A DNA stretch of 35,572 nucleotides, taken from the IMG/VR virus record IMGVR_UViG_3300025711_000241, positions 1 through 35,572 of that record. One strand, written 5' to 3'. Shown here in pieces: positions 1 through 21,379 of the stretch. The position numbers and the translations under genes were made by a program. The stretch comes from a virus. The notes under the pieces are model-generated. The model worked only from the letters and a program-made list of their open reading frames with translations, was not told where the DNA came from and did no database searches. How positions within the stretch are numbered: position 1 is the stretch's first letter; the number at the start of each line of letters is the position of its first letter.

Positions 1-1452
1 TCACGATTCTGGAGCAATCCAAGCGTTTAACGGCAAGGCTTGGCATTTTAGTTGAGACGTGAACTCCTTAACCCTGTAAGAGCTTCCTTGACAGAGTACA
101 TAATCACATGAGTCATTAAATCTAGCGTAGACGTCTGAAGAAATGGCAAAGCTGTAAACTAGAGCTATTTTTATATTTTTCCCATTTTTCTTTGCTTCTA
201 CGGTTATAAATTCTCCATCTTTCTCAGGGTCTCCAATTTCGTGACAATGCCATCCTTTATCCCTTAATTTAGGAATAATTTCATTATTCATCTTTTCACT
301 TAATACAATAGCTCGGACGGACCAACCATCATCAGAGGCTGTTGTAATAAAAGGTAGTTCATTAGTTAACTGAAAACGATTTAGCGCTATTTTTTTTATT
401 TGTTGAGCTTCCAAACAAGCTAATACTTCTGCGTGAAAGGACGTGGAGTCTTCATTGTATTCTGGGACTAAAATACTCACTTTGCTTTCGGGTAATGAGA
501 AAACTTCTACAAATGCTAATGCTTGTATTAGACCCATAGCTCTGAAGAAATTGCTTTCATTTTGCCAGATGTCAGAAAGTGCATGGGCAAAATGATGCCG
601 ATTGAACCCCGATTGTTTATTATAGTTGCATGTGTTGGCGTAAAAACTTTCAAGTAACCAAGTTCGAAGTGTTTCAAGCATGAATATTCTTTCATTGTTG
701 GCTTTTAAATATTCATAGTCGCAAAATTCGCTAGGGATCCAGTCTGCATTGTGAATGTCTAATTTTAAAACATTTAAGTAAGCTACTTTAAAACAACTGT
801 TAATTTTGCTTATAGTGTCTAGCTCACTCCCTTCTTCACCAACAATTGTTCTAAGAATATCTTCAATTATTGGAATTAGTGAAGATATGGCTGCTATTTT
901 AACACCACTGTAAAAAGCTAATATTGCTTCCTTAATAATTGGGAGATGTTTGGAAATTGCTGTGGATTTTGATAGAATTTGAATGGTAACTGGAATGATA
1001 AGTGATAAAGTGTATAGAGAAGATAACTCATTTTCAAAATTGTTTTGGGCTGTTACATTATCAATGGAGGTGAAATTTCTAGGGGTTACCCCGCACATTT
1101 TCATCGAGTTATTCAATACACCCTTTGAAATATATGGAGGGAAAAACCAATCTACATGCTTCCAGTATTCCTCATAATTTAATGTAGGTGCTATACGTCC
1201 TTGAGCTAAAGGTATCTCTGTTGACCTTAGTCTTGGATAAATAGCACTTCCGACGCTGGTTTTAATTAAAATACCTTTTGATTGTATATCATAGCCAAAA
1301 GTGACCTCTTTTATATCATAAACTGTTATGTTTCTATTTTCGGCGAGATTTCTTAATTCATCAAGAGTGATAGATGATTGTATGTTTTTGTTACTTATGT
1401 AGCTCCAAATTCCTGTAATACGGCTATCAATAGTTTGGTCATCAAATGACAT
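1..1452 (-). CDS. Putative HEPN-domain protein, possible abortive-infection gene (483 aa)
   Basis: I do not recognise a named family for the whole protein. Residues 285-290 read RHHFAH inside the segment GFNRHHFAHAL, followed by a long helix. This matches the R-x4-6-H catalytic motif of HEPN ribonucleases, many of which are phage-defence or toxin proteins. A hydrophobic helical stretch lies near residues 145-205; the C-terminal third has no recognised motif. The start is placed at 1452, not at the longer in-frame ATG at 1482, because GAGGTG lies a few bases upstream and the longer form would run back into int. Only 8 bp separate it from the int stop, so it is probably the third gene of the cI-int transcript and expressed in the lysogen. 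It is clearly AT-rich next to int, which suggests acquisition as cargo. Function is inferred from the motif and the context only. Confidence 0.72.
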   Translation of the reverse strand: MSFDDQTIDSRITGIWSYISNKNIQSSITLDELRNLAENRNITVYDIKEVTFGYDIQSKGILIKTSVGSAIYPRLRSTEIPLAQGRIAPTLNYEEYWKHVDWFFPPYISKGVLNNSMKMCGVTPRNFTSIDNVTAQNNFENELSSLYTLSLIIPVTIQILSKSTAISKHLPIIKEAILAFYSGVKIAAISSLIPIIEDILRTIVGEEGSELDTISKINSCFKVAYLNVLKLDIHNADWIPSEFCDYEYLKANNERIFMLETLRTWLLESFYANTCNYNKQSGFNRHHFAHALSDIWQNESNFFRAMGLIQALAFVEVFSLPESKVSILVPEYNEDSTSFHAEVLACLEAQQIKKIALNRFQLTNELPFITTASDDGWSVRAIVLSEKMNNEIIPKLRDKGWHCHEIGDPEKDGEFITVEAKKNGKNIKIALVYSFAISSDVYARFNDSCDYVLCQGSSYRVKEFTSQLKCQALPLNAWIAPES

Positions 1453-1460
1453 TTCACACC

Positions 1461-2471
1461 TCAATAAGCATAGGTTCGACAATCGAGTGGGTTCAACTTT
1501 ACGGCATCTTCTAGGTGGTCTGGTGCAAAGTGAGCATATCGCATTGTCATTTTAATGTCTGTATGGCCGAGAACACGCTGCAAGACCAGAATATTACCGC
1601 CATTCATCATAAAATGGCTGGCGAAGGTGTGGCGCAAAACGTGGGTAAGCTGTCCTGCCGGTAGCTCAATGCCTGTTCTTTCCAGAGCTGAACGGAACGC
1701 GCCATAACAATCACTAAACAACCGGCCTTTTTTATCATCAGGTAGAGACTCATAGAGCTCTTTGCTAATTGGGACGGTACGGTTTTTTCTGCCTTTAGTG
1801 TTGGTGTATGTGATTTTGTATTTCGCGAGCTGGCTTTTTCTCAGACTCTCGGCCTCAGACCACCGTGCGCCAGTGGAGAGACAGATTCTTACCACAGTTT
1901 CTAAATCAGGGTGGTCATGCCGTTTGCACTCTCCGAGAAGTAGCGAAATCTGGTCGTGAGTTAGCCAGGCCATTTCCATTTCTTCAGTGCGGAAAGGGCG
2001 CATATTTTTCAATGGGTTTTCACCCTTCCATTCGCCGAGGCGGTTTAACTCATTGAACACCGCCCGGAAGTAGGCCAGCTCAAGATTAAGCGTGCGAGGC
2101 GATACCTCTTTCACTCTGTTTGAACGGGCATATTCACCCTTTAACCGTTTTTCTCGGTAGCGGGAAAACATCTGCGCATCGAAATCGCGTGCGAGTGGTT
2201 CGCCCATACACTCAAAAGCATGGTGCATAGCTAACTGGCGTTTCAAACCGTCTCTCAACGTAATACCATGAGCGCTATACCATGAATCAACCAACTCTTT
2301 TAAGGTGCGCCTGTCTTCCTTTTCTTCCTGCCACGGGTTTTGAACGGTGTACTGTTCAAACGCCAGAGCCTCGCCCTTAGTAGCGAATTTTTTTCTGATA
2401 CGTTTGCCTTTTGCACCGTTTGGGTAGATCTCACAAATCCAACCGCCAGCTGGATTTTTACGCACGGTCAT
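1461..2471 (-). CDS. int: P2-type site-specific integrase (tyrosine recombinase, 336 aa)
   Basis: Tyrosine recombinase that integrates and excises the phage by recombining attP with the host attB. The N-terminus (MTVRKNPAGGWICEIYPNGA) is the small three-stranded arm-binding domain of P2/186 integrases. The catalytic residues are all visible: R203 in STGARWSEAESL, H277 and R280 in HVLRHTF, H303 in LGHTD, and nucleophile Y312 in MRYAHF. Length matches P2 Int (about 337 aa). Its ATG overlaps the cI stop as TAATG, so the two are translationally coupled on one leftward transcript. In P2 attP lies just downstream of int; here another gene follows directly, so attL must lie to its left, outside the window. 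Confidence 0.96.
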   Translation of the reverse strand: MTVRKNPAGGWICEIYPNGAKGKRIRKKFATKGEALAFEQYTVQNPWQEEKEDRRTLKELVDSWYSAHGITLRDGLKRQLAMHHAFECMGEPLARDFDAQMFSRYREKRLKGEYARSNRVKEVSPRTLNLELAYFRAVFNELNRLGEWKGENPLKNMRPFRTEEMEMAWLTHDQISLLLGECKRHDHPDLETVVRICLSTGARWSEAESLRKSQLAKYKITYTNTKGRKNRTVPISKELYESLPDDKKGRLFSDCYGAFRSALERTGIELPAGQLTHVLRHTFASHFMMNGGNILVLQRVLGHTDIKMTMRYAHFAPDHLEDAVKLNPLDCRTYAY

Positions 2472-5006: not shown

Positions 5007-7226
5007 TTGGCGGTTCAATTCGCTTACCCGTGGAATGCTCCACGGTCGGCAATAGCCAGCCCATATCTTACCTATGACCAACAGCATCGCCGCGACCGTA
5101 TGTTCGCGGCTTTGCTGCATGCGAGAAAAGTGCTTTCTCTCCAGCCTGAGTGTGTGCGTTTTGATGTTTATCGAACCGCTACGGTGCTTGAGCAAAATCA
5201 GGGCAGTCAACGAGCTAATGCCTTTTTAATCAGCTTTTGTAAAAAGGCATTGCCGCGTCTTGAACTGGTCGCAAAAAAATACGAGTGCGTTGGCATCAAC
5301 AGCAACGTATCAACCGCTGTTTTCGGCGGTCATCTTGATACCCAGCTTATGCAATATCTGGCATCACGCATGGTCAATATGGTCGCCAGATTTAACCGAC
5401 TCCCGGACATGTCCCGCGCCGATATTGACTTACTGGCCTCTGATATCGCTAATTTCATCCGGTCAGAGCTGGCCGACATTGATGACACCGGATTAAGTGA
5501 ACTCAAAACGCTGTACACGTGGTATATGCAAGCTGGGATTATTTCCCTGCAATTCAATGTTACCCCGCCACATTGGGAGCGGGTGACAAAGAAATATGTC
5601 GGCGAGGACGAAATAGCCCCGGCTATCACCCGCATGTTTAACGATGTGTGGTGGCGTGGTCGTCTGCGACGCATTGCGGCTGCATGGCGCGAACATCTGC
5701 ACATTGCCGTCGGCAACGTCAGCAAGAAAAAGCACGCCTACGCGAGTAAAAACTGCGTGACAGACTGGCGCGAGCAGAAGCGCCGCACGCGTGAGTTTCT
5801 CAAAGGTCTGGATCTCGAAGACGAAGACGGCAACCGCATCAGCCTGATTGAAAAATACGACGGCTCAGTCGCTAATCCAGCTATACGCCGCTGCGAGCTG
5901 ATGACCCGCATCCGTGGGTTTGAAAATATCTGTAATGAGCTCGGTTATGTCGGGGAGTTTTACACCCTGACTGCACCGTCTAAATATCACGCCACGACTA
6001 AAGCGGGATACCGTAACAGCAAATGGAACGGAGCCAGCCCGTCGGACACGCAGAGTTATCTCACCGGACTTTGGGCGCGCATTCGCGCCAAGCTGCATCG
6101 GGAAGAAATCCGCATTTTCGGCATACGTGTTGCCGAGCCTCATCACGACGGAACGCCGCACTGGCACATGCTTATGTTCATGTTGCCGGAAGACGTCGAG
6201 CGCGTACGCATTATCATCCGTGATTATGCGTGGGAGGAAGACCACCACGAACTGAGAAGCGATAAAGCCAAAAAAGCGCGCTTTCATGCTGAGGCCATTG
6301 ACCCGGAAAAGGGCAGCGCTACCGGCTATGTTGCTAAATACATTTCAAAAAATATCGATGGCTATGCTCTCGATGGTGAAACCGATGACGAAAGCGGTGG
6401 GCTGCTGAAAGATACAGCTCCTGCCGTATCAGCATGGGCGGCACGCTGGCACATTCGTCAATTTCAGTTTATCGGTGGCGCGCCGGTGACGGTATATCGT
6501 GAGTTACGTCGTCTCGCTGATACCGAGACCGCGCACGGTTTAAGCGTTGAGTTTGCCGCCGTTCATGATGCCGCTGACGCCGGTGACTGGGCTGGTTACG
6601 TTAATGCGCAGGGAGGCCCGTTTGTCCGGCGCGATGATTTACAAGTGCGCACACTGTATGAACCGCGGGCCGAGTTTAACCAGTATGGCGAGGAAACTGT
6701 CTGCATTCGTGGCGTGTACGATTCCGCCGTCGGTTCTGACACCCCGATTTTAACCCGACTAACGCAGTGGAAAATTGTGCCGAAGCGAGCCGTTGATTTG
6801 GCCGTTGACGTTAAGGGCGCTCCTGCGCCCTCTCGGAGTTCTGTCAATAACTGTACGGGAAGCGAAAGCGATCCGCCGGAGCTGGATTTATCCAAACCGT
6901 TGAGTCGAAGTGAAAGGCGGAAGCTAACAGCCAGACTCAGGGACAAAAAACGGGTTACCAGGCGTGATTTTATCCACGGAACGGATAAACAAATTGCAGC
7001 CATTGACAGAACAATAGACGAGATTCAGCTCACTACCGGCGAAACCATTAGCCGGGGTGAGGCCCTGCACCTGATGGCCGGTGGCAAAAGTTGCATAAAC
7101 GGCAAATGGTGCCGTGGTTCATCAACTGGTGAAATTTTCCCGGTAGCACCGTCACACCGGGCGCAGGCCAGACAAATCCTAAATCGAGTCGCGGGGTTAG
7201 CGTCAGTTACTAAGTTGAGACTGTAA
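5007..7226 (+). CDS. A: Replication initiation endonuclease gpA (739 aa)
   Basis: Rolling-circle initiator that nicks the phage origin (within its own gene in P2) and joins covalently to the 5' end. It belongs to the Phage_GPA family. The HUH metal site is H385-W386-H387 in GTPHWHMLMF, preceded by EPHHDG. The two catalytic tyrosines are Y441 and Y445 in YVAKYISKN, spaced exactly as in P2 gpA. Length is similar to P2 (761) and 186. Start is a TTG at 5007, 6 nt after GGGGGG; an overlapping ATG at 5002 is in another frame. It is the last conserved gene of the early operon. A P2-like B gene (helicase loader) is not seen nearby. Confidence 0.95.
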   Translation: MAVQFAYPWNAPRSAIASPYLTYDQQHRRDRMFAALLHARKVLSLQPECVRFDVYRTATVLEQNQGSQRANAFLISFCKKALPRLELVAKKYECVGINSNVSTAVFGGHLDTQLMQYLASRMVNMVARFNRLPDMSRADIDLLASDIANFIRSELADIDDTGLSELKTLYTWYMQAGIISLQFNVTPPHWERVTKKYVGEDEIAPAITRMFNDVWWRGRLRRIAAAWREHLHIAVGNVSKKKHAYASKNCVTDWREQKRRTREFLKGLDLEDEDGNRISLIEKYDGSVANPAIRRCELMTRIRGFENICNELGYVGEFYTLTAPSKYHATTKAGYRNSKWNGASPSDTQSYLTGLWARIRAKLHREEIRIFGIRVAEPHHDGTPHWHMLMFMLPEDVERVRIIIRDYAWEEDHHELRSDKAKKARFHAEAIDPEKGSATGYVAKYISKNIDGYALDGETDDESGGLLKDTAPAVSAWAARWHIRQFQFIGGAPVTVYRELRRLADTETAHGLSVEFAAVHDAADAGDWAGYVNAQGGPFVRRDDLQVRTLYEPRAEFNQYGEETVCIRGVYDSAVGSDTPILTRLTQWKIVPKRAVDLAVDVKGAPAPSRSSVNNCTGSESDPPELDLSKPLSRSERRKLTARLRDKKRVTRRDFIHGTDKQIAAIDRTIDEIQLTTGETISRGEALHLMAGGKSCINGKWCRGSSTGEIFPVAPSHRAQARQILNRVAGLASVTKLRL

Positions 7227-7303
7227 CTAATTCATATCCATATCATACACATACGTCCTTTTGTGGCATGACTTTTTTCTTTCATCTTTTTATCGATACA
7301 TGG

Positions 7304-7323
7304 TACTGTGTATTTATACAGTA
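7304..7323. promoter_or_regulatory. Consensus LexA (SOS) box
   Basis: The 20 bases TACTGTGTATTTATACAGTA fit the E. coli LexA operator TACTG-N10-CAGTA exactly, with an AT-rich, alternating centre. It lies 18 bp before the GTG of the next small gene, where it would cover a -10 element (TATTTA or TTTATA). Repression by LexA and induction by DNA damage is the expected behaviour. Confidence 0.92.
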
Positions 7324-7341
7324 TCCCGTATTGGAGGTTGT

Positions 7342-7554
7342 GTGGATAGAGAGTTAAACGAGCAAGTCATGATTGAACGGGTCGAGATGATTGCGCGTCT
7401 GACGACAGAGGGTGTTTGTCAGGAAAGAGATCGTGAAATTGCTTTGAATTTAATTGCGGAAATTGCGAGAGGGAACTTGATGAAAAATAAATCTTTTTCA
7501 GTTGTTTTCGCTCCATCTCCTGTTGAACAAAGATTAAAAAAAGGGGCGACGTGA
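7342..7554 (+). CDS. Small SOS-controlled protein, candidate antirepressor (70 aa)
   Basis: I do not recognise the family. From GTG 7342 the protein is 70 aa, strongly charged and helical in its first 50 residues (MDRELNEQVMIERVEMIARL), with a basic tail ending VEQRLKKGAT. The start is chosen because GGAGG at 7333-7337 precedes it and because the LexA box would lie inside the longer reading frame that begins at 7261. Sitting behind a consensus LexA box in a phage with a 186-like CI, it is a reasonable candidate for the SOS-made antirepressor function that Tum provides in 186. It is not obviously similar to Tum or DinI. Role is inference. Confidence 0.72.
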   Translation: MDRELNEQVMIERVEMIARLTTEGVCQERDREIALNLIAEIARGNLMKNKSFSVVFAPSPVEQRLKKGAT

Positions 7555-7959
7555 GGGTTAACATCACATTGGATAGAGACCAGATATTTGGTGTGTAGGG
7601 GCCAACAGAGAACATCTAAGGTATCTTCATCAGGACAAATGGCCAACTCTGAGCGGTAGCTAATTTCACTATCCGCTTAGATTTCGCCCGGCAATGCAAT
7701 GCCGCGATAGTGGATTGGAAATCCTATGCAAGTTTGGTCATTTTAATTATGGTGATCAACCAACAACTAATTATCATTGTTTTTTCATTAAAAATATCTT
7801 TTAGTTCAATGACTTTAGGGGCTGTATCACTCTGCTTGTCTTAGGATGTATGCTACAGTTATCATATGTGTAAAGAGCAGCTTATGCTTTAAAATGGTGA
7901 GTTTTTTTGAAGGATTTAACATAGTTTTAACTCTATGGTCATTGTAATTAGGAGTTAGT
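7555..7959. other. 405-bp non-coding junction with a structured element
   Basis: No convincing gene. An imperfect stem pairs CACTATC (7667-7673) with GATAGTG (7706-7712) and GC with GC inside it, and encloses a smaller stem GGCA/TGCC (7690-7693 with 7700-7703). From about 7740 the DNA becomes AT-rich, marking the boundary of the cargo module. TTGTCT (7836-7841) and TATCAT (7860-7865), 18 bp apart, are a possible promoter for the gene at 7960, with a leader of about 90 nt. All of these are by eye. Confidence 0.45.
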
Positions 7960-9135
7960 ATGAAGAAAAAATCAGCAGGTGTAGAAGAAAAATTGAGACA
8001 TAAAGAGGTGGAATATATATCGATTGAGAATTTAGAGCTTGACGTTGAAAACCCTCGATTCGGTGAAGACTCATCGTCTGCAGACACACAAATAGATGTT
8101 CTAAATAATATAGTTAAGAACTATGGTGTTACCGATGTAATAAGCTCGATCGCTGTTAATGGCTATTTCTCTGCAGAGCCTATGGTTGTAAGGAAAAATA
8201 GTAATCAAAAATACACAGTTATGGAAGGTAACAGGAGGCTAGCCGCATGTCTAATATTAAAGAATGATGACAGAGCAAGAGATCAGGTTAATTTGCATCA
8301 ACAGTATATAGATAAATATATTTCTCACGGTCAGCCTAAAATAGATCCTATTCCTGCAATAGTATTTGAAGATGATGATGGGGTAGATAAAAAATCGCTA
8401 ATCTCTTATTTAGGGGTTAGACATATAGTATCAACAAAAGACTGGGATTCATATGCAAAAGCGGCATGGATAGCTAGAACCATTAAAGATGGTGATATGA
8501 ATGTAAGCGATATTTCGACAATGATTGGAGATCGCAATAGTACTATCAAAAGACTTTTGTCTGGATATAACTTTATAAAACAAATGGAGTCTGCCGGTAA
8601 ATATAATAAGGATGATAGTGTTAAGAAAGGAAGAGGGAGTAATACTAGCTATCCTTTTTCTTGGGTATATACGTTATTAGGATATAAAAGCATTCAGGAT
8701 TTTGTAGGGTTATCAGATGATCCGACGGTATCCAACCCTATTGACGAGAAGAAATTAGATAACGCCAAACTTCTGATGACAGCTATGTTTGGTAATAAAA
8801 ATAAAGGGCAAAACTCTCAGGTCAAAGATTCACGTAATTTAGGTGTATTGGCAGAAGTAGTCGCATCTCCAGAAAAAATTGTGTTGCTCAAGCAAGGAAA
8901 AGATGTCGAAGAAATTAATGATCTAACACAACCTATTGGAGATAGGTTGACCAATCTTATGCTTGAAATAAGAGGGAAGTTAGATGAATGCATTACACGT
9001 GTTGGGCGAGAAGATTTGCCAAGACAAGATGCAATTGAGTTAAATAATTATCTTGAACAAATCAGTAAGCAGTTTAGATCTTTTAGAACGTCAATTAATG
9101 AAGCTATTAGTGGGAATGATTCAGAGGGCTTTTAA
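7960..9135 (+). CDS. ParB/sulfiredoxin-fold DNA-binding protein (391 aa)
   Basis: N-terminal ParB/Srx domain: N31-P32-R33 after a short strand, then SSIAVNGYFSAEPMVV, then M88-E-G-N-R-R-L-A-A96, the nucleotide-contacting GxRR-type box of ParB-fold proteins. A HTH follows at about residues 182-200 (VSDISTMIGDRNSTIKRLL), as in KorB/ParB. The last 190 residues are helical without a known motif. It is unlikely to be a partition protein: there is no ParA and the phage integrates. ParB-fold NTPase domains also serve as sensors in modification-dependent defence proteins. TAGGAG precedes ATG 7960. The gene is AT-rich and lies 2 nt before the putative nuclease gene, clearly one operon. Function within the module is unknown. 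Confidence 0.82.
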   Translation: MKKKSAGVEEKLRHKEVEYISIENLELDVENPRFGEDSSSADTQIDVLNNIVKNYGVTDVISSIAVNGYFSAEPMVVRKNSNQKYTVMEGNRRLAACLILKNDDRARDQVNLHQQYIDKYISHGQPKIDPIPAIVFEDDDGVDKKSLISYLGVRHIVSTKDWDSYAKAAWIARTIKDGDMNVSDISTMIGDRNSTIKRLLSGYNFIKQMESAGKYNKDDSVKKGRGSNTSYPFSWVYTLLGYKSIQDFVGLSDDPTVSNPIDEKKLDNAKLLMTAMFGNKNKGQNSQVKDSRNLGVLAEVVASPEKIVLLKQGKDVEEINDLTQPIGDRLTNLMLEIRGKLDECITRVGREDLPRQDAIELNNYLEQISKQFRSFRTSINEAISGNDSEGF

Positions 9136-9137
9136 TT

Positions 9138-10094
9138 GTGAATTATGGATTACGTTCTAAGATGCAAAGTTTCGCAACCGATGCGGATCAGGCTGAATTA
9201 AATGCCTTGCTTGATATTAATGCAACAATTGATTCAGGGATTGAAGACGATAAAATTGCAGGAACAATTTATGACGAATTAGATGAGTTTGATGGACAAT
9301 TTGAAGAAGATTGGATGAAAGAGGATCAAGGTAAGGATATATTGGTTGGGCAAATTGCAGAACAAATACAATGGCGCGCAAACATTCTAAAAGATGCCTA
9401 TCCATTTGAATATAAAGCAAATCATCTAACACTAAAGAAATCCCCGTCCCCCGTGTATTTATTTTGCTTATGCGTTTCAATGATAAATAATTTAACCAAA
9501 GGGGATAATGTCCGTCTTCCCCGATATTTTGAAGTTATGGCTGGTCGTCTTTTTACTAAGTTTTTGAGCACACATGCAAAGCATATGCACACAGGATGGC
9601 CTCGTTCTGATGGAAATCCGACAAGTTATAAAGAATTGGCTTTAAAATTAAATGGTCTAATTTCATCTAATACAAAAGAATGGGCTTGGCGCGCTGAAAA
9701 TGGTTTGAAAGATGACGATGCACTTAGAATTAAAGATTGTGGAGTTGACTTTGTGACTTGGGTCGATTTCCTGGATGGTAGGGATGGTCGTCTTTTTGCC
9801 CTAGGCCAATGTGCTTGTGGAAATGATTGGCCTACAAAGTATAATGATATAAAAATTGAGAAGTTAAGTCCATGGTTTCACCCGCTTACATATATCAAGT
9901 GTGTAAAAGTATTTTCAACGCCTTATATATTAGTTGATGAAATGCTGAGAGAAGCCAGTGCTGAAGCAGGTATTGTTTTTGATAGAATTCGTTTAACAAT
10001 TGCACATGACCGCTTCAAAGACGATTTAGATGATATGCAAAAAGACTTAAACATATTGATAGACTTTTGTAAGAAGTTAAAAAAGGCCCAGTAG
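9138..10094 (+). CDS. Putative PD-(D/E)xK-like nuclease of a restriction-like module (318 aa)
   Basis: I do not recognise a named family. The N-terminal third is acidic and helical. Around residues 200-234 a strand-turn-strand pattern appears: D204 in KDCGVDFVTWVDF, then Q224 in RLFALGQCACGNDW and K234. Such GxD ... (E/Q)x-C followed by NWxxK is how some diverged PD-(D/E)xK nucleases look, with Q replacing E. Starts at GTG 9138 with GAGGG at 9124-9128, two bases after the ParB-like stop, so co-expressed. It ends in a bidirectional terminator shared with the convergent methyltransferase. The nuclease call is inference from this motif plus the adjacent methyltransferase. Confidence 0.62.
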   Translation: MNYGLRSKMQSFATDADQAELNALLDINATIDSGIEDDKIAGTIYDELDEFDGQFEEDWMKEDQGKDILVGQIAEQIQWRANILKDAYPFEYKANHLTLKKSPSPVYLFCLCVSMINNLTKGDNVRLPRYFEVMAGRLFTKFLSTHAKHMHTGWPRSDGNPTSYKELALKLNGLISSNTKEWAWRAENGLKDDDALRIKDCGVDFVTWVDFLDGRDGRLFALGQCACGNDWPTKYNDIKIEKLSPWFHPLTYIKCVKVFSTPYILVDEMLREASAEAGIVFDRIRLTIAHDRFKDDLDDMQKDLNILIDFCKKLKKAQ

Positions 10095-10105
10095 GGCCTT
10101 TTTTT
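10079..10105. terminator. Bidirectional rho-independent terminator
   Basis: AAAAAAGGCCC, a 4-nt AGTA loop, then GGGCCTTTTTTT. The perfect GC core with A-run on one side and T-run on the other serves both the rightward nuclease gene, whose stop is in the loop, and the leftward methyltransferase gene, whose stop is at the end of the T-run. Confidence 0.9.
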
Positions 10106-11087
10106 ACCAAATATCAGGAATATTATTAACCACCGATTCAAATAGTGGAGGTGGTACAGCATTACCGACAACTTTATAGCGTTCTTTTAGTATACGTGCT
10201 GTTCCAAAACCTTCCATTTCAGGGAAAATTAGATTCCCACCGTGCTTAGTGTAATTTTTACTAAATCCCTGTAAAATGGCTGCTTCTCTATAAGAGAACC
10301 GTCTTGCAGGTTGATCTGTAACAAACTCCCACTTGTCCGTCTCTATCTTCTTTAACTCGGGGCTAATAGGATGTAGAGGTATATGGCGGAGATTACTTAC
10401 TATCGTTTTACTAACCTCATCCCAGTTACGGCGTCGATTTCTCGATAGATAATACCAATGGAATGGATCATCACAATATTCACCTGTTGGCCACTCAGGT
10501 AAATCTTTTAACGCTTCGCCAATTGTAACATATGGGAATGGTTTATTTTCTCCATGAGTAGGCTCAGGGAATTTATATATATGGTTAAAGTCATTTCTGA
10601 TGCCTACGATAATTAATCTTTTTCGTTCTTGTGGTACACCGTAGTGATGTGCTTTGAGCACACTCCAAACAACCTTGTAGCCAATTGTACCGGCGTTAGA
10701 AAATCGTTCAATTTGATCTTCTAGCAAGTGTTGGAATGTACTATTTCTCATGCCCGAAACATTTTCCACGATAAATGCTTTGGGTTGAATGCTTGCGAGT
10801 GCCCTGGCAAATTCTTTGTATAAAAAATTGATACTTCTGTCAGCAAGGCGAGCTCCTCCTTGGCTGAATCCTTGGCATGGATAGCAACCGACAAGAAGTT
10901 CAGCATTCGGAAATTTTTCTACAGTCCGAATGTCTTGAATGAGATAGTCTGTTTCGGGTTGGTTTGCAAGATAGACCTCCCTCGCATATGGCAAAATATC
11001 GTTTGCCATTACGACATCGAATCCAGCTTTCACTAGCCCTGCATCGGAACCACCACAGCCCGAGAACAATGATACAGCTTTAGGCAT
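10104..11087 (-). CDS. C5-cytosine DNA methyltransferase (327 aa)
   Basis: Transfers a methyl group from S-adenosylmethionine to C5 of cytosine in DNA. Motifs in order: I, FSGCGGSDAGL (8-18), AdoMet binding; IV, PCQGFS with catalytic C71; VI, E108-N-V; VIII, QERKR (153-157); then the target-recognition stretch; IX near REAAILQGF; X, VVGNAVPPPL. All are intact, so the enzyme should be active. The start is at 11087 behind a strong GGGGGAG rather than the longer ATG at 11111. It runs against the ParB-like/nuclease pair and shares their terminator. AT-rich like them. Together they resemble a restriction-modification unit with an added ParB-fold component; an orphan protective methylase is the alternative. 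Confidence 0.93.
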   Translation of the reverse strand: MPKAVSLFSGCGGSDAGLVKAGFDVVMANDILPYAREVYLANQPETDYLIQDIRTVEKFPNAELLVGCYPCQGFSQGGARLADRSINFLYKEFARALASIQPKAFIVENVSGMRNSTFQHLLEDQIERFSNAGTIGYKVVWSVLKAHHYGVPQERKRLIIVGIRNDFNHIYKFPEPTHGENKPFPYVTIGEALKDLPEWPTGEYCDDPFHWYYLSRNRRRNWDEVSKTIVSNLRHIPLHPISPELKKIETDKWEFVTDQPARRFSYREAAILQGFSKNYTKHGGNLIFPEMEGFGTARILKERYKVVGNAVPPPLFESVVNNIPDIW

Positions 11088-11112
11088 TTTCTCCCCCTGA
11101 TAAACCGGCAAG

Positions 11113-11483: not shown

Positions 11484-12527
11484 TCAGTCACTTTCAGTAT
11501 CAAGGTTGTAGCTTTTGAAGCGGATCACCTCCTGACCGGCCCATGCGTTGACCTCGCGCATCCGGTCCTGTAACGGGATGAGCTCGTTACGGACAAAAAC
11601 CTTTGCCACCTTCTCGATGTCACCGAGCGAACCGACATTTTCCGGCTTGCCGCCCATCAGCTGGAACGGGATGCGGTGAGCGTCGAGCAGGTCGGCGGCG
11701 CTGACTTTTTTGATATTGAAGAAATCGTCTTTCGTTGCCACCTCACTGAGCGGCACAATTTTTATGCCGTCCGGTTTTCCGTGCGGTGCGTAGAAAAAAA
11801 GATTTTTGAAGTTGCCGAGCCCCTTCGAACTGCGCATCGCATCGCGCAATGCCTCAACATCGGTACCGCTTTGCGCGGCGTCCGTCACATACATGATGTA
11901 ACCAGCATGAGCCCCGTTCTGGTAATACTTGCGACGGAACAGCGTCGCCGCTTCATTCAGCCAGGCGGAGTTTAGCGCGCTGAGATATTCCGGCATGCCG
12001 TACAGCTCCTGGTTGATGTCTGGCTCCAGCAGGTGGAATACGGATCCCGGCGCGAACGGGTGCGGCTGGTCAAATGACGGCACCCACCAATAGACATCAT
12101 CTTCAATACCACGTCGCGTGTATTTAGCCGGTGACGCTTCCAGACTCAGCGGGCGACCGGTGACACTCTTTCGGAGCTCTAAAAACGCGTTGCCAAACAC
12201 CAGAAAATCAAGCGCGAAGCGGCTGAAGTCCTGTTGTGACAGGAGCGGGTGCGGAATAAATGTTGAGGCCAGAATGTTGCGCTTAACGTAAATCGGCGAG
12301 CTGTGATGAACGGCGGCGCGCAGGCTTTTCGCCAGCCCGTTAAAGCTGACCGGCGGTTCGAACCAGCGGCCATTATTGACGCACTCCACGTAATCAAGAA
12401 TATCGCGGCGGTCGAGCACAGCGCTCGGTTCACCAAAGGTAAACGCCTCCATTTTTTGGGGCGCGCTGTCTTTCATGTTGCGCGGGCGCTTTTGTGGCTG
12501 TGGCTTCCGGCCTTTGTATTTACTCAT
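11484..12527 (-). CDS. Q: Portal protein gpQ (347 aa)
   Basis: Forms the dodecameric ring at the special capsid vertex through which DNA is packaged and to which the neck attaches. Belongs to the P2 Q/phage portal family; length matches P2 (344). The core GMPEYLSALNSAWLNEAATLFRRKYYQNGAHAGYIMY and DLLDAHRIPFQLMGG are typical. Start overlaps the P stop (TGATG), so the two are coupled on the leftward late operon, opposite to the other head genes exactly as in P2. Confidence 0.95.
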   Translation of the reverse strand: MSKYKGRKPQPQKRPRNMKDSAPQKMEAFTFGEPSAVLDRRDILDYVECVNNGRWFEPPVSFNGLAKSLRAAVHHSSPIYVKRNILASTFIPHPLLSQQDFSRFALDFLVFGNAFLELRKSVTGRPLSLEASPAKYTRRGIEDDVYWWVPSFDQPHPFAPGSVFHLLEPDINQELYGMPEYLSALNSAWLNEAATLFRRKYYQNGAHAGYIMYVTDAAQSGTDVEALRDAMRSSKGLGNFKNLFFYAPHGKPDGIKIVPLSEVATKDDFFNIKKVSAADLLDAHRIPFQLMGGKPENVGSLGDIEKVAKVFVRNELIPLQDRMREVNAWAGQEVIRFKSYNLDTESD

Positions 12528-20302: not shown

Positions 20303-21379
20303 TTATTGATCATTGTAAAGAGACTTTTTGATGTTTTCAAAATAACTACTTGCACCGCCTGATATTTTTGACCCTATAATTTCAAAGAAAGTGTTTTCTA
20401 GTTCCTCTGAGTTTTCTTTGGCTATTACTACTTGCATTAAATATAAGATTAAGGCTGTGTTAGGCATGCCATTTCTCATCATTAATGCTTTTGAGGTTTC
20501 ACTAATGTTGTTTACTCGCTTTAAAATCAATTCTTTGTTTCTATTCAGGGCCTGATCGAGATCTTTAATTGTATATATATCTATGAGATGCAAGCCATTC
20601 AGTAGTTTTTGATTGTTGATATTTTCATTTCTGTCGGTAATGATTAAGTTATGTTGCTGTAGTATATTGTCAGAAATTTCTTTTACTGTTTTGTTTTTCT
20701 TCAAAAATTCACTTAATGAGACAATGTCTAAAGGCGAAAGTCCTTCCCCATGCTCGATTTCATTGATCGCCTCTTCTTGACGAATGTTAATGGCTTGGCG
20801 AATTTTAATAAATTCATCATCGGCTAATTCGAGAAGGCCAGCTAATCGCGAAAAATATCGCCTAATTTCATTTGGTAGCCCATCGGCGGTTTTGTAACCG
20901 ATATCATGCTCAATCTCGGCCCAGGCATGCTGTAAAATTGACCTTATCTGAATTTCAGCTTTTATGTCCTTGTATGGCACATACTCCCGTAGACAGGTAC
21001 GGTTATTGCTTAGACTGACAATGTAATGCAGTGATAAGTAACCGAATCTGTCTGGCTCAAGGGTTGTCCTCTTATCTATAGAGTTTTCTGAGTCGACAAT
21101 GAACTCCTGTTCAATCAGTTTTGCTATTATGTCAACATCATCAGAGTAATGAGTGATTATCCGAATGCCTATTACATCTGTTATATCAAATATGTCATCA
21201 TACTTGTCTTTATCAATTATTTTTTTCTCGAGACTTTTTCTATTTTTCACTCGTGAGTCGAGGGAGTGAATAGTAACGCCAGCATCTCTTATTAGAGTAT
21301 TGAGTAGAGATTTTAAAGATAACGCGTAAGATTCAAAGTTGTCTTTTTGCTCATCATAAACTGAAAGTATATTGGTCAT
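20303..21379 (-). CDS. RelA/SpoT-domain nucleotide synthetase, possible toxin/defence protein (358 aa)
   Basis: N-terminal RelA/SpoT synthetase domain (about residues 20-200): D68 and R73 in TDVIGIRI, GYLSLHY at 113-119, EIQIRS at 142-147, and QHAWAEIEH at 150-158. All expected catalytic positions look intact; there is no hydrolase domain. Known single-domain homologues make (p)ppGpp, make (p)ppApp, or pyrophosphorylate tRNA as toxins; CapRel, a fused toxin-antitoxin sensing phage capsid protein, is one phage-borne type. The C-terminal 150 residues are helical and could be an inhibitory/sensor part, but I cannot show that. It lies opposite to S and V at the P2 orf30 position and is AT-rich, so it is cargo with its own promoter. 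Confidence 0.9.
   Translation of the reverse strand: MTNILSVYDEQKDNFESYALSLKSLLNTLIRDAGVTIHSLDSRVKNRKSLEKKIIDKDKYDDIFDITDVIGIRIITHYSDDVDIIAKLIEQEFIVDSENSIDKRTTLEPDRFGYLSLHYIVSLSNNRTCLREYVPYKDIKAEIQIRSILQHAWAEIEHDIGYKTADGLPNEIRRYFSRLAGLLELADDEFIKIRQAINIRQEEAINEIEHGEGLSPLDIVSLSEFLKKNKTVKEISDNILQQHNLIITDRNENINNQKLLNGLHLIDIYTIKDLDQALNRNKELILKRVNNISETSKALMMRNGMPNTALILYLMQVVIAKENSEELENTFFEIIGSKISGGASSYFENIKKSLYNDQ

Follow-up and report, generated by a model that had tools for sequence, protein, structure and literature searches.

A conserved prophage cassette of a ParB-type protein, a predicted nuclease and a C5 methyltransferase as a probable restriction-modification system

Three AT-rich genes in a P2-like prophage, at a position where such phages carry defence genes, probably constitute a restriction-modification system in which a ParB-type protein would serve as the reader of DNA. 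We analyzed a stretch of 35,572 nucleotides (IMG/VR record IMGVR_UViG_3300025711_000241, hereafter the window) and compared its cassette, consisting of genes A (ParB-like), B (putative nuclease) and M (C5 methyltransferase), with related loci in viruses and bacteria. A restriction-like system had been suggested earlier by a sequence-only reading of this DNA, and the comparison supports that suggestion on three counts: the trio is kept together, A and B are tightly linked, and a methyltransferase is retained even as its chemistry changes.

Layout of the cassette and its site in the prophage

Gene A (7960-9135, plus strand, 391 aa) and gene B (9138-10094, plus strand, 318 aa, GTG start) are separated by 2 bp and form an operon, facing gene M (10104-11087, minus strand, 327 aa, with its stop codon at 10104). 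Upstream of the cassette lie a P2-type replication gene A (Phage_GPA, 5007-7226) and, beside it, a DinI-like gene (7261-7554); downstream are the portal gene (11484-12527, minus strand) and terminase. The site between replication endonuclease and portal is hotspot 1 of P2, where the defence genes tin and old are found (PMC9519451). The nearest relatives of the window's structural genes belong to Klebsiella P2-like phages, one of which has a regulator and a reverse transcriptase in the cassette's slot instead. The GC content is 0.35-0.40 within the cassette, compared with 0.53-0.63 in most flanking bins. Thus the open reading frame coordinates, the flanking genes and the base composition agree with the earlier description of a tight two-gene operon with a 2-bp gap, AT-rich inside a GC-rich phage, at the tin-old position. 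The description of M as an intact C5 enzyme facing the operon also stands, except for its start: this had been placed at 11111, mechanically the first TTG, but all ten aligned homologues and the RefSeq homologue start at the ATG at 11087. The presumed promoter of the operon lies in an AT-rich region at 7700-7959 (plus strand) with a weak sigma-70 match at 7836-7865; promoter-scan counts upstream of A-B show no excess over shuffled sequences.

The junction between B and M is occupied by a hairpin (AAAAAAGGCCCAGTAGGGCCTTTTTTT, 10078-10106) with two GGCC sites in its stem. It folds as AAAAAAGGCCC-AGTA-GGGCCTTTTTTT with an energy of -17.3 kcal/mol (z = -5.3), holds the TAG stop codon of B in its loop, and is preceded by a run of A and followed by a run of T. 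The hairpin reads as a bidirectional terminator, as in the earlier description; a simple terminator scan missed it because the A and T runs pair into the stem. In most convergent loci, the stop codons of B and M overlap by 4 bp or lie at most 9 bp apart. A GGCC-bearing hairpin (e.g. GGCCTAATATTAGGCC) resembling the window terminator was also seen at the B stop codon of loci with a D12-type methyltransferase (L169-L172, L179-L186).

Elsewhere in the window, an AT-rich gene amid the tail genes (20303-21379, minus strand) encodes a 358-aa protein with a RelA/SpoT domain (Pfam 1e-20; PADLOC candidate PDC-S33), so that this may be another cargo site, holding a protein of the CapRel-like or alarmone toxin type. 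At the prophage end, beside the integrase, an AT-rich 493-aa open reading frame (1-1482, minus strand) has no match in Pfam or PADLOC. GATC is strongly under-represented across the whole window (observed/expected 0.35-0.40).

Predicted functions of the three proteins

Protein A comprises a ParB/Srx-like N-domain, a helix-turn-helix region and a helical C-terminal part, with an EGNRRL box at residues 89-94 that is invariant across 55 A proteins and an RHI...W motif at residues 154-162. Its AlphaFold2 model is confident (pLDDT 92.4) and displays a ParB fold with a helix-turn-helix; the best Foldseek matches of this model are Noc, ParB and KorB (E 3e-5, probability 1.00), in agreement with the ParB/Srx box and helix-turn-helix originally read from the sequence. 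KorB acts as a CTPase clamp, sliding along DNA (PMC11790492). In its predicted fold A combines an N-domain and a helix-turn-helix as the ParB, Noc and KorB clamps do, but it has an additional helical C-terminal part, and no ParA partner was seen beside the trio in the loci inspected. True ParB proteins have GERR as their CTP motif, in place of which A has EGNRR; because of this departure, CTP use by A remains putative. We propose by analogy that A may be an NTP-dependent DNA reader or clamp, with its nucleotide use modelled on that of KorB.

Protein B conserves residues D204, Q224 and K234, together with E20, R80, PF89-90 and DR282-283; across 60 B proteins, neither D204 nor Q224 varies, and the conservation of K234 is 90% or higher. 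The AlphaFold2 model is confident (pLDDT 90.5), and its order of strands and helices fits PD-(D/E)xK. In the fold search MspJI came first, with a modest match (E 3e-3, probability 1.00, query TM-score 0.34), ahead of PD-(D/E)xK CRISPR ancillary nucleases. MspJI was also the sole PDB match to a 60-sequence B profile, right at GDGGVDFIG...LGQAK (E 0.057), a match that is weak alone, yet independent of the fold search. The position of the catalytic lysine is informative: K234 occurs without QxK in 60 of 65 B rows, with A or G at the QxK position; canonical QxK occurs without K234 in four rows (one locus being counted twice among these); one row has both and none has neither. Such reciprocity argues strongly that the catalytic lysine has relocated to K234 and that selection acts on the site. 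With D204 and Q224 invariant and a lysine at either QxK or K234, B carries the residues of the PD-(D/E)xK superfamily, and both sequence and predicted fold point to a nuclease of MspJI/Mrr type. The diverged D204...Q224...K234 site claimed from the sequence is thus supported by conservation, lysine exchange and the MspJI matches, and the structure prediction called for as a check on the 318-aa protein returned a nuclease-like fold. MspJI and B align at the catalytic D...Q, but the QxK of MspJI is replaced in B by Q-x-A/G, and K234 sits on the helix that follows. Moreover, MspJI carries a modification-reading domain, whereas B has no reader domain (no SRA domain was found in it); the part common to both is catalytic only. 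Membership of B in a named family was rejected, since B has no match in Pfam, NCBIfam or PADLOC; in PHROGs it matches only families without an assigned function.

Protein M matches Pfam DNA_methylase at 2.8e-59 and contains all C5-cytosine catalytic motifs; with such an intact DNA methyltransferase adjoining putative restriction genes, the locus has the composition of a type II-like restriction-modification system. The best solved relative of M over its full length, target-recognition region included, is M.HaeIII, with SRNRxRxW...R...LHP in register across that region. M.HaeIII uses R225, R227 and R243 in this region, which would correspond to R216, R218 and R234 of M. Because the alignment runs through the recognition domain, GGCC is predicted as the most likely target of M. 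Site avoidance was dropped as evidence on the target, the mild under-representation of GGCC in the window (observed/expected 0.77) being uninformative. Classical HaeIII-type systems pair the methyltransferase with a single-chain endonuclease, whereas the trio has no adjacent gene for such an enzyme. M also matches the PADLOC DruM2 models; Druantia was rejected, as DruE helicase and other Dru genes are absent beside M, whose neighbours are A, B and phage structural genes.

Conservation, exchange and relatives of the trio

Viral contigs and GTDB genomes, searched with A and with B as starting points, yielded tandem A-B genes with a convergent M at 20-97% identity, amounting to some 80 distinct A-B-C5 loci spread over Gammaproteobacteria, Alphaproteobacteria, Planctomycetota and phages. 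The carriers include Erwinia, Providencia, Acinetobacter, Ectothiorhodospiraceae, a Rhizobiaceae MAG and Planctomycetota, as well as the phages WPhi (gp98, gp96, mth), 12474III and Pseudomonas D14A. The arrangement recurs far more than chance allows, with order and strand kept in distant loci, so that the co-occurrence of the three families, on which the restriction-like reading depended, is found elsewhere. Escherichia phage WPhi (AY135739) has the same three families in the same order, on the same strands and in the same tin-old slot, but A, B and M are 26%, 19% and 67% identical, respectively, to those of the window; its record names only mth and gives the gp98/gp96 pair no function. Among complete E. 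coli genomes (5,426), the window-type cassette is present at full length in 37, at 79.5% identity, and the WPhi-type cassette in 103. A further 36 are matched only through M, at 93%; in the single genome inspected, M adjoins a divergent A-B pair, and the candidate case of a methyltransferase without A-B in E. coli O145 was therefore rejected. One E. coli WPhi-type cassette (L240, 2927-3907) has IS5 inserted in B, with A and M intact.

To quantify the association with methyltransferases, we examined 120 A-B pairs with distinct A and counted methyltransferases within 1.5 kb. One was present for 113 pairs: C5 in 82, D12 adenine in 25 and N4/N6 in six, with examples confirmed by Pfam. Five of the seven other pairs are at contig ends, and two belong to one record with a C5-type motif ∼3 kb away, so no A-B pair without any methyltransferase was left standing; that record (L237, MT835579, 15024-19863) contains two different A-B pairs on opposite strands. 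These counts contradict the possibility, raised with the sequence-only reading as one that would speak against it, that the pair occurs mostly without a methyltransferase. When 398 Pseudomonadota genomes were searched with B alone, A and a methyltransferase were adjacent in all five matches, although the fresh count is 4 of 397, because the sample included genome G006, its own centre and a known carrier. A gene that is nuclease-like by motif and predicted fold is thus linked to a methyltransferase in nearly all loci. The A tree calls for no fewer than five switches of methyltransferase chemistry (among C5, D12 adenine and N4/N6), and retention through such switches is predicted by a restriction-modification role and not by a partition or lysogeny role.

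Pairwise identities over 74 C5-type loci reveal how the three genes travel. The rank correlation between A and B identities is 0.905 and remains 0.88 as a partial correlation given M (0 of 500 permutations as high), while that between A and M given B is only 0.15. Among 59 pairs of loci with M at least 90% identical, 30 have A below 45%; WPhi and 12474III, for example, are 98% identical in M, 31-32% in A and 21-23% in B. This tight A-B correlation, set against the loose coupling of M, indicates that A most likely works jointly with B and that A-B blocks are exchanged around a near-constant methyltransferase. One point argues against the restriction-modification reading: A-B pairs only ∼30% identical beside a near-identical M are odd if A by itself recognizes the same 4-bp site.

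The PADLOC PD-Lambda-5_A model matches the N-terminal part of A (E 8e-20). Vassallo et al. (2022, PMC9519451) showed that PD-λ-5 shields E. coli from most of the phages they tested, and interpreted the system as a compacted form of RM+Abi. It shares with the trio a ParB-like N-domain with EGNRR and RH...W (hhalign 99.9% over ∼230 columns) and a methyltransferase adjacent to the ParB-type gene. However, it consists of two genes without B, and its D12 adenine methyltransferase is codirectional whereas the C5 enzyme of the trio is convergent; true PD-λ-5_A proteins adjoin D12 methyltransferases. The alignment of PD-Lambda-5_A with A covers the N-terminal 160-250 residues only, its C-terminal half being absent from A. 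That half has no similarity to B either, and the idea that B is a cut-off C-terminal half of PD-λ-5_A was rejected. Searches for PD-Lambda-5_B (PDLC04018) came up empty in WPhi, in D14A and in four virus records that bear the trio, and M of the window is a C5 enzyme. Because these two defining features fail, the trio is not PD-λ-5. The statement that no described system has this exact composition holds in that none was found, but the isolation it implied does not, since PD-λ-5 shares the ParB part of A and has a D12 methyltransferase. The trio is nameless in PADLOC 2023, Pfam, NCBIfam and PHROGs, and no paper describing it was found in a literature search for which most subscription papers, REBASE and preprints were out of reach. 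Judged by gene content, it is a distinct member of a wider theme, in which a ParB-type protein is combined with an effector, often with a methyltransferase.

Two further arrangements were observed among related proteins. In PADLOC candidate PDC-M38A (L153, 3820-6863; L155, 4072-6836), which resembles OLD/PARIS-type sensors, a ParB N-domain like that of A is joined to an AAA_21 ATPase; its small partner, which starts LLVFCEGPHD, has a TOPRIM-like look. Vibrio phage ValB1MD-2 (L019, 3132-5568) has the two portions of a PD-λ-5-like protein separated, as a ParB part of 252 aa and a second part of 265 aa, with an adenine methyltransferase next in order.

Proposed mechanism and competing explanations

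In the restriction-modification reading that we favor, M would methylate the cytosine of a short palindromic site, for which GGCC is the likeliest candidate, and thereby mark prophage and host DNA. A would load on unmarked DNA, probably in a nucleotide-dependent manner as a CTP-type clamp, and would carry or activate B, its presumed obligate partner, which would then cut the unmarked DNA of infecting phages. We put forward more tentatively, and with somewhat more doubt than confidence, that the cassette represents a class of restriction-modification systems in which a ParB-type nucleotide-dependent clamp, not a target-recognition domain or a helicase, reads the missing self mark and delivers the nuclease, and in which a portable clamp-nuclease module is swapped as one block among three methyltransferase chemistries.

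How else might these genes be explained? A and B could form a toxic sensor-effector pair that responds to an infection cue, as in a PD-λ-5-like abortive system, with M as a guard or antidote and not a site-matched marker. PD-λ-5_A is the nearest tested relative of A by sequence and belongs to a system described as RM+Abi, and a general guard would fit the loose coupling of M to A-B; nevertheless, we consider this unlikely, given that the likeness of PD-λ-5_A to A is confined to the ParB region, with a C-terminal half unrelated to B, that B bears a DNase-type site, and that some methyltransferase has been kept through at least five replacements. The resemblance of B to MspJI suggests another scheme, in the style of Ssp/GmrSD or MspJI, in which A senses a DNA modification and licenses B to cleave modified phage DNA, or in which the self mark activates A. 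This scheme draws on the 5mC dependence of MspJI, the closest solved relative of B, and on the ParB-like DUF262 domains of the modification-linked nucleases SspE, DndI and GmrSD. It appears improbable, however: B corresponds to the catalytic part of MspJI only, with no SRA domain found; a lysogen whose nuclease attacked its own cognate mark would not survive; and the partner methyltransferase is always present. We give very little credence to the idea of lysogeny or partition cargo, in which A and B would maintain the prophage and M would be a phage anti-restriction methyltransferase. Such a role would suit the predicted ParB fold of A and the lone C5 methyltransferases of many phages, but in P2-like phages this slot is occupied by defence genes, the loci inspected showed no ParA gene next to the trio, and every record of the phage collection with an M at least 60% identical also carries A.

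If the restriction-modification reading is correct, the P2 defence hotspot would harbor an unnamed restriction-modification layout, present in roughly 3% of complete E. coli genomes, and PD-λ-5, as yet unexplained, would be tied to a wider family. The exchange of A-B around a near-constant M supplies natural sets of loci for locating the part that reads the site. The ParB fold would also have a new job, as a reader of self versus non-self DNA.
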